11,631 nucleotides of DNA from Dehalococcoidia bacterium (GTDB taxonomy: Bacteria; Chloroflexota; Dehalococcoidia; JACPQF01), in contig JAUSEJ010000681.1 in NCBI GenBank assembly GCA_030650265.1, forward strand, positions 1 to 11,631. The letters run 5' to 3'. Shown in pieces: positions 3,873-4,403 of this stretch. Each line of letters starts with the position of its first letter. The first letter of the stretch is position 1. Below the pieces are notes generated by a model. It saw only the letters and a program-made list of their open reading frames with translations. It made no database searches and had not been told where the DNA came from. A program made the translations under genes and the position numbers.

Positions 3873-4403
3873 TCAACGCCCAATAATTGCTGATACGATC
3901 TGGTCAAAGACTTCGTCTGAGATCCGCAGTACATCCGCCTCGGGGATAGTGTCGAAAGGATGGGGAACAACGACCATGGGCAAGTTCGGCATACCTTTGG
4001 CCTTTCTCGACGTTTCCGCAAGCGGCAGGAAATACTGCGTGACTACCGTTACAGTAGGGGTCCCTCGCTTCTCGAGTTCGATTCCGTCGTGGATACTCCA
4101 CGTGGTGCAGGAGCCTCAGTTACCCAACCCGTTGATGACGACCTGGCACTTTTCCGCTAGCTCTTCAATTTGTTTGGTAGCGGGGCTGCTCTTGTTCTTC
4201 TTGAGATAGATGGCTCCGCTCACCCCATAGCGCTCAGCCAATCGTTTCTGTACTACATCGATAAGGAGGCCAAAACTCCACCAACCGTTATCCAGATAAC
4301 CGACTGTTATCCCCTTCAAATCAGTCGGGCGACTGGCCAATCGCGTACTGGCGCTTTTCGGCAGCGCAACCGGATCCAAGATAATGACTTCCGACTCGCT
4401 CAT
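3873..4403 (-). CDS. UGSC family selenoprotein with in-frame UGA selenocysteine
   Basis: Conventional reading sees two fragments separated by TGA at 4118-4116. Read through as selenocysteine, the frame gives a 176-residue protein in which U96-G-S-C99 follows VINGLGN. This is exactly the motif that names the UGSC (seleno)protein family, and a U-x-x-C box resembles the C-x-x-C redox site of thioredoxin-fold proteins. The downstream half is clearly coding: TTWSIHDGIELEKRGTP (100-116), a TVTVVTQYF strand, and NLPMVVVPHPF (139-149), ending IIGR before a TGA at 3875-3873. The N-terminal half includes GITVGYLDNGWWSFGLLIDVV (31-51). No signal peptide or membrane helix is seen. ATG 4403 has AGGAGG 6 bases upstream; a TTG at 4409 directly abuts that site and is unlikely. 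Substrate and exact reaction are unknown. The host must also encode SelA/SelB/SelC/SelD outside this window. Confidence 0.9.
4084..4118 (-). promoter_or_regulatory. Candidate bacterial SECIS element with its UGA codon
   Basis: Minus-strand RNA immediately 3' of the UGA (4118-4116) forms CGUGGA-GUA-UCCACG: six perfect pairs (4102-4097 with 4093-4088) closing a three-base loop that begins with G-U. Two further C-G pairs (4105-4104 with 4085-4084) extend it across a small internal loop. The loop G is separated from the UGA by 19 bases. A short stem, a small apical loop with G among its first bases, and this distance fit the known bacterial SECIS model recognised by SelB. No RNA folding program was run. 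Confidence 0.75.

Follow-up and report, generated by a model that had tools for sequence, protein, structure and literature searches.

An interrupted gene in a Dehalococcoidia contig is most likely an intact UGSC-family selenoprotein gene, whose product is probably the selenocysteine subunit of a two-subunit GrdB-like enzyme

A gene split by an in-frame TGA codon may be broken, may end early or may be decoded through the TGA as selenocysteine (Sec), and in the last case it has to be asked which enzyme the resulting selenoprotein serves. We addressed these questions for such a gene in an 11,631-nt stretch of DNA from a Dehalococcoidia bacterium (referred to below as the window), the relevant features of which are listed in Table 1.

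The earlier note, made from the letters of the window, claimed that reading this TGA as selenocysteine yields the motif U-G-S-C at residues 96–99. Translation with TGA = U bore this out and placed the frame on the minus strand, which had not been specified. The TGA is preceded by 95 codons and followed by 80 more, and the frame remains open, as had been proposed, as far as a proper stop codon 25 bases ahead of the ATG of the next gene (P0002). Profile matches to a glycine-cleavage H protein and a lipoate ligase were found on the opposite flank, and the other neighbors in the window are presumably metG, rsmI, rodA, mrdA, mreD, mreC and mreB, which they resemble by sequence.

Automatic annotation had been predicted to report a truncated protein, and the database entry for this gene (P0131) is indeed only 95 aa long. 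A false start of the downstream gene at position 4021, predicted at the same time, did not materialize: the database gives P0002 a length of 347 aa, which corresponds to a start at ATG 3847, and its M1 hardly varies among 47 aligned homologues, so that the false start is absent from the database entry.

Table 1. Positions of the features discussed in the text (numbered from the first letter of the window)
Feature	Coordinates	Strand	Description and basis
UGSC-family selenoprotein gene	4403..3873	minus	176 codons, ATG 4403, terminal TGA 3875-3873; read-through with TGA = U
Sec codon 96 (in-frame TGA)	4116..4118	minus	read-through; TGA = U of UxxC in 43 family loci
U-G-S-C motif, residues 96-99	4107..4118	minus	read-through; alignment; CGSC in five Cys homologues
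SECIS-like hairpin	4088..4102	minus	nt 17-31 from U of UGA; stem CGTGGA/TCCACG, loop GTA
Partner gene P0002, 347 aa	2804..3847	minus	homologue adjacent or fused in 41/43 UGSC loci

The assignment of the gene to the UGSC family held. The full product scored 163.6 bits with the Pfam model UGSC (PF24696; curated cutoff 25) and 129.1 bits with the NCBIfam model UGSC_fam (NF041046; curated cutoff 125), i.e. above both cutoffs, while the part preceding the TGA gave 57.1 and 27.2 bits, respectively. The increase from 57.1 to 163.6 bits indicates that the match of the read-through product is more than chance.

At residue 96, where homologues were expected to carry U or C, U was present in 27 of the 27 rows of alignment A1, whose members were picked from TGA-bearing matches; in this alignment both column 96 (Sec) and column 99 (the second Cys) are invariant. 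Five independent database proteins (P0003, P0004, P0127, P0128 and P0129) have CGSC at the Sec site. One of these Cys-type proteins, P0129, carries an N-terminal extension of approx. 100 residues. Six further database entries (P0130–P0135, that of the window gene included) comprise 93 to 96 residues and end directly ahead of the Sec, and UGSC copies are therefore easily missed.

The TGA recurs in relatives of the window gene. In the two nearest loci (L001 and L002, with identities of 74% and 61%), both of which belong to the groundwater Chloroflexi MAG G001, it occupies the same codon, and in a third locus, labelled Nitrospinota, it lies at the corresponding place. All 12 UGSC matches of G001 (approx. 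3.2 Mb) contain one in-frame TGA. Within a Chloroflexota sample the family was detected in 32 of 301 genomes, with at most 11 candidates scored per genome, so that copy numbers are lower bounds; exactly one TGA was present in 76 of the 79 matches. Of the other three, two had Thr or Met in place of Sec and one was an N-terminal fragment of a split gene. For the phylum to which the third locus belongs (genome G002; L145–L154), the family was found in all 18 genomes, with 2 to 8 matches each and one TGA in 89 of 90 matches. Two or more matches occurred in at least 14 of the 32 family-bearing Chloroflexota genomes (a split gene accounting for one of these) and in every one of the 18 genomes of the second phylum.

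The TGA provides the U of the UxxC motif in all 43 translated loci (two duplicates were dropped); the other matches were counted as having one TGA inside the match, its place in UxxC being established for these 43. The two UGSC-like sequences mentioned above that have Thr or Met instead of Sec (L102:12388-12909 and L155:424-933) have possibly lost the redox residue.

Comparison with L001 gave dN values of 0.180 before and 0.150 after the TGA (dS was saturated) and amino-acid identities of 72.6% and 77.5%, respectively. The low dN and the identity after the TGA indicate that the second half is constrained as protein. A pseudogene, or a sequencing error generating the TGA, would produce a single in-frame stop in an otherwise open frame, as observed here, but this explanation is extremely improbable in view of the same-codon TGA in the translated relatives, the low dN on both sides of it and the identity, which is higher after the TGA than before. 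It is also very unlikely that UGA terminates translation and leaves the N-terminal 95 aa as the functional product; the database does carry such a product, but constraint persists past the TGA, and the Sec-domain homology described below sits at and after this codon.

Read-through of the TGA would likewise be seen if UGA had been reassigned in this organism to serve as a regular sense codon. We checked nine other genes of the window: none contains an internal TGA and three end in TGA, which is evidence against code reassignment, and the UGSC gene itself terminates at TGA. We consider reassignment exceedingly unlikely, and conclude that the apparently broken gene is most likely an intact UGSC-family selenoprotein gene.

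The genes required for Sec incorporation were sought in related genomes. G001, the MAG of the closest relative, contains selA, selB, selD and tRNA-Sec. With the machinery judged from this relative, neither of the outcomes that the note had named as refuting its reading was encountered (a genome devoid of Sec machinery, or homologues lacking both U/C at the site and similarity past the UGA). At E 1e-60, selA was present in 31 of the 32 UGSC-bearing Chloroflexota genomes vs. 244 of 301 overall (Fisher p 0.015) and selB in 30 of the 32 vs. 236 of 301 (Fisher p 0.023); this enrichment is modest, because Sec genes are common throughout the phylum sample. Among the 32 genomes, G219 had neither selA nor selB and G261 had no selB at this threshold. 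The selD match in both relatives (L113 and L114, including the selD of G001) contains an in-frame TGA, and SelD may itself be a selenoprotein in these organisms.

Just after the Sec codon there is a SECIS-like hairpin, in which nt 17–22 (the U of UGA being 1) pair with nt 26–31 and the loop starts with G23 and U24; we take this loop to resemble that of E. coli fdhF. Over 32 loci, ten loci with differently laid-out hairpins having been excluded from the pair count, 189 of 192 cells were paired (98.4%; shuffled mean 79.0), 30 cells were changed on both sides (11.3 in shuffles) and the covariation score was 0.476 (0.141 shuffled); in each case 0 of 500 shuffles was as high, in tests that are inflated by the relatedness of the rows. 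Two measures were weak: pairs with double-sided change (3 vs. 2.5 shuffled; 239 of 500 shuffles as high) and further pair types (9 vs. 7.1; 25 of 500). When the hairpin partners were slid, at most 60.4% of cells were paired.

The hairpin was also compared with synonymous recodings. The mean number of pairs was 5.91 out of 6 over 33 loci (30 of them fully paired) vs. 4.13 in the recodings, and the mean folding z over 43 loci was −1.44 vs. −0.16 for control windows, with values under −1 in 27 of 43 loci and 2 of 43 control windows. The residues encoded by the stem vary along with it (W-S-I-H, A-S-V-A, C-S-V-H and G-S-V-L). In the window sequence taken by itself, the hairpin also stays fully paired in 23% of synonymous recodings, and folding is about equally stable in the 39 nt following the terminal TGA (−10.3 kcal/mol) and in those following the Sec TGA (−9.9 kcal/mol). 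This signal is weak, and the argument from the hairpin therefore rests on the family. The sequence data as a whole strongly suggest that UGA 96 is decoded as selenocysteine, aided by the hairpin.

The gene located downstream, P0002, matched none of the Pfam or NCBIfam models at E 1e-3, and at least 7992 of 8000 candidates scored in the protein database were homologues. A P0002 homologue lies beside UGSC in 41 of 43 loci, either on the same strand within 436 bases (the distance from one profile match to the other) or within one open frame; near-identical loci (L024–L026) and paralogues within one MAG were counted separately. The homologue was placed downstream in 28 loci and upstream in 13, and in 11 of the 41 the two genes share one frame, with UGSC first. 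No P0002 homologue was found in 18.5 kb at L028 (L028/L077), which has a well-conserved UGSC gene, or in the 2.3 kb examined of the 6.5-kb contig of L037.

In a set of 201 genomes, P0002 (E 1e-30) was present in 20, of which 19 also bear UGSC (Fisher p 1e-25), and there was no UGSC genome without P0002. A P0002 homologue unaccompanied by any UGSC match in its genome occurs at L128 (G075). Gene order, fusion and co-occurrence show that UGSC and P0002 travel as a widespread two-gene set; they also point to joint action of the two proteins, which presumably are in physical contact.

The genes neighboring UGSC loci vary and indicate no single substrate. For the predicted model of P0002 (pLDDT 91.1) there was no significant fold match, which makes the substrate role of this protein a guess, and its sequence gave no profile match to GrdB. 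In the USTC-type fused proteins inspected, Ala takes the place of C78 of P0002. In four stretches of G001, another protein recurs near UGSC (L097:2667-4058 and homologues in L096, L099 and L100); the L097 protein matches a radical-SAM model with 25.5 bits, which is below the cutoff of 29.5.

The UGSC profile and that of Chloroflexota GrdB (an alignment of five rows) aligned across 83 columns in such a way that the two Sec positions coincide (hhalign E 1.1e-8, probability 95.6); a second GRDB-related group aligned with UGSC at E 2.8e-5 (probability 74.0). With the motif masked, the E values were 4e-5 and 1.1e-3, respectively; reversed templates, used as controls, gave 0.062 and 0.54, and the lowest value from 100 GrdB column shuffles was 0.055.

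Weak matches were obtained when 27 UGSC members were scanned with NCBIfam at a lenient threshold: TIGR01917 (glycine reductase component B) matched 17 of them (best E 2.3e-4), GrdF 12, GrdH 5, TIGR01918 5 and PrdB 4 (best E 2.7e-4). In the same scan, 12 unrelated families matched one or two UGSC members each (best E 1.4e-3). The window protein itself scored 12.4 bits with TIGR01917 (E 0.055), far under the cutoff of 602.2, and had no match to the other four GrdB/GrdF/GrdH/PrdB models at E 5. Judged from the profiles together with the predicted model described below, the Sec-containing half of UGSC and the Sec domain of GrdB, GrdF, GrdH and PrdB are homologous. Domain homology combined with a sub-cutoff score means that UGSC, while sharing a domain with the GrdB/PrdB enzymes, falls outside their families.

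G001 gave no match to Pfam GRDB (PF07355). In L053–L072, matches to PF07355 stop just ahead of the redox-motif codon (UGA or Cys); the model apparently does not extend into the Sec domain. According to the available part of a published account (PMC13188914), glycine is bound, and ammonia released, by component B of glycine reductase, GrdA is the likely interaction partner of the UxxCxxC motif in this component, and PrdB is the component B homologue acting in proline ring cleavage.

The AlphaFold2 model of UGSC, built from 15 sequences (six covering the N-terminal half only) and with Sec96 modelled as Cys, had a pLDDT of 90.7 and a pTM of 0.83. In this model strands and helices alternate in five beta-alpha units, and Sec96 is placed after strand 3, between the strand 88–94 and the helix 97–112. 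The PDB matches listed were Rossmann-like, flavodoxin-like and similar alpha/beta proteins. No solved thioredoxin (Trx) was among the matches listed for the model (Foldseek, 50 rows; VIA), an absence that excludes nothing. The thioredoxin fold has its own order of strands and helices, and this was the basis of our comparison: UGSC is predicted to be Rossmann-like, and not Trx-like as suggested for the family in 2008 (PMC2398784, in its available part).

It is unlikely that UGSC is a general thiol-disulfide (thioredoxin-like) redox selenoprotein of which P0002 is one client. The UxxC motif is consistent with such a role, and a 2026 review, in the portion available, lists UGSC beside selenoproteins of the Trx-like fold; however, in the predicted model strands alternate with helices and Sec follows the third strand, sequence profiles relate UGSC to GrdB, and pairing and fusion with one partner suggest a dedicated enzyme.

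The intact UGSC selenoprotein is, in our opinion, probably the Sec-bearing subunit of a two-subunit GrdB-like enzyme, in which the adjacent P0002 would be the other subunit, fused to the first in some genomes. UGSC would supply the Sec and P0002 the substrate site. By analogy only, the reaction might comprise (i) attack of the Sec selenolate on a substrate held by P0002, (ii) reductive cleavage of a carbon-heteroatom bond, (iii) closure of a selenylsulfide between Sec96 and Cys99, and (iv) its reopening by a dithiol such as thioredoxin. Paralogous UGSC/P0002 pairs would serve different substrates.

We see an even chance that UGSC and P0002 represent a separate class of GrdB-like selenoenzymes, which would combine a new substrate subunit with a short Sec subunit belonging to the superfamily of the glycine/proline reductases, have expanded to up to 12 paralogous copies in one MAG, each pair having its own substrate, and be easy to overlook, since gene callers truncate the Sec subunit at its UGA.

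The gene itself adds one member to a known family. The UGSC family has been in print since at least 2008, and a fusion with a domain named Unknown_1 was reported in the same year (both from the available part of PMC2398784). In the limited set of literature searched on UGSC, available in part, we did not find the GrdB relationship, the near-constant partner or the multi-copy expansion. The context of the gene matters more than the gene: the relationship to GrdB/PrdB and the near-constant partner provide a concrete, testable enzyme hypothesis for the UGSC family, which is often multi-copy in the genomes sampled.

Compared with known systems, the window protein is an ordinary member of the UGSC-containing selenoprotein family, which it resembles in scoring above the cutoffs, in the UGSC motif and in the exchange of Sec for Cys, with no distinguishing feature. 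It shares the UxxC motif with the thioredoxin-like selenoproteins but differs in the order of secondary structures in the predicted model, the Trx order being taken from general knowledge.

In the case of GrdB, the differences are (i) length (176 aa vs. the 431 positions of the GrdB model), (ii) the absence of the last Cys of UxxCxxC, the motif that GrdB is described as having (in the available part of the source), and (iii) a partner, P0002, without a GrdB profile match. The likeness to GrdB, GrdF, GrdH and PrdB lies in the putative Sec domain, which in each case presents a strand, U-G-(S/T)-C, a helix, E-x-x-G-x-P and a later HP-containing strand.
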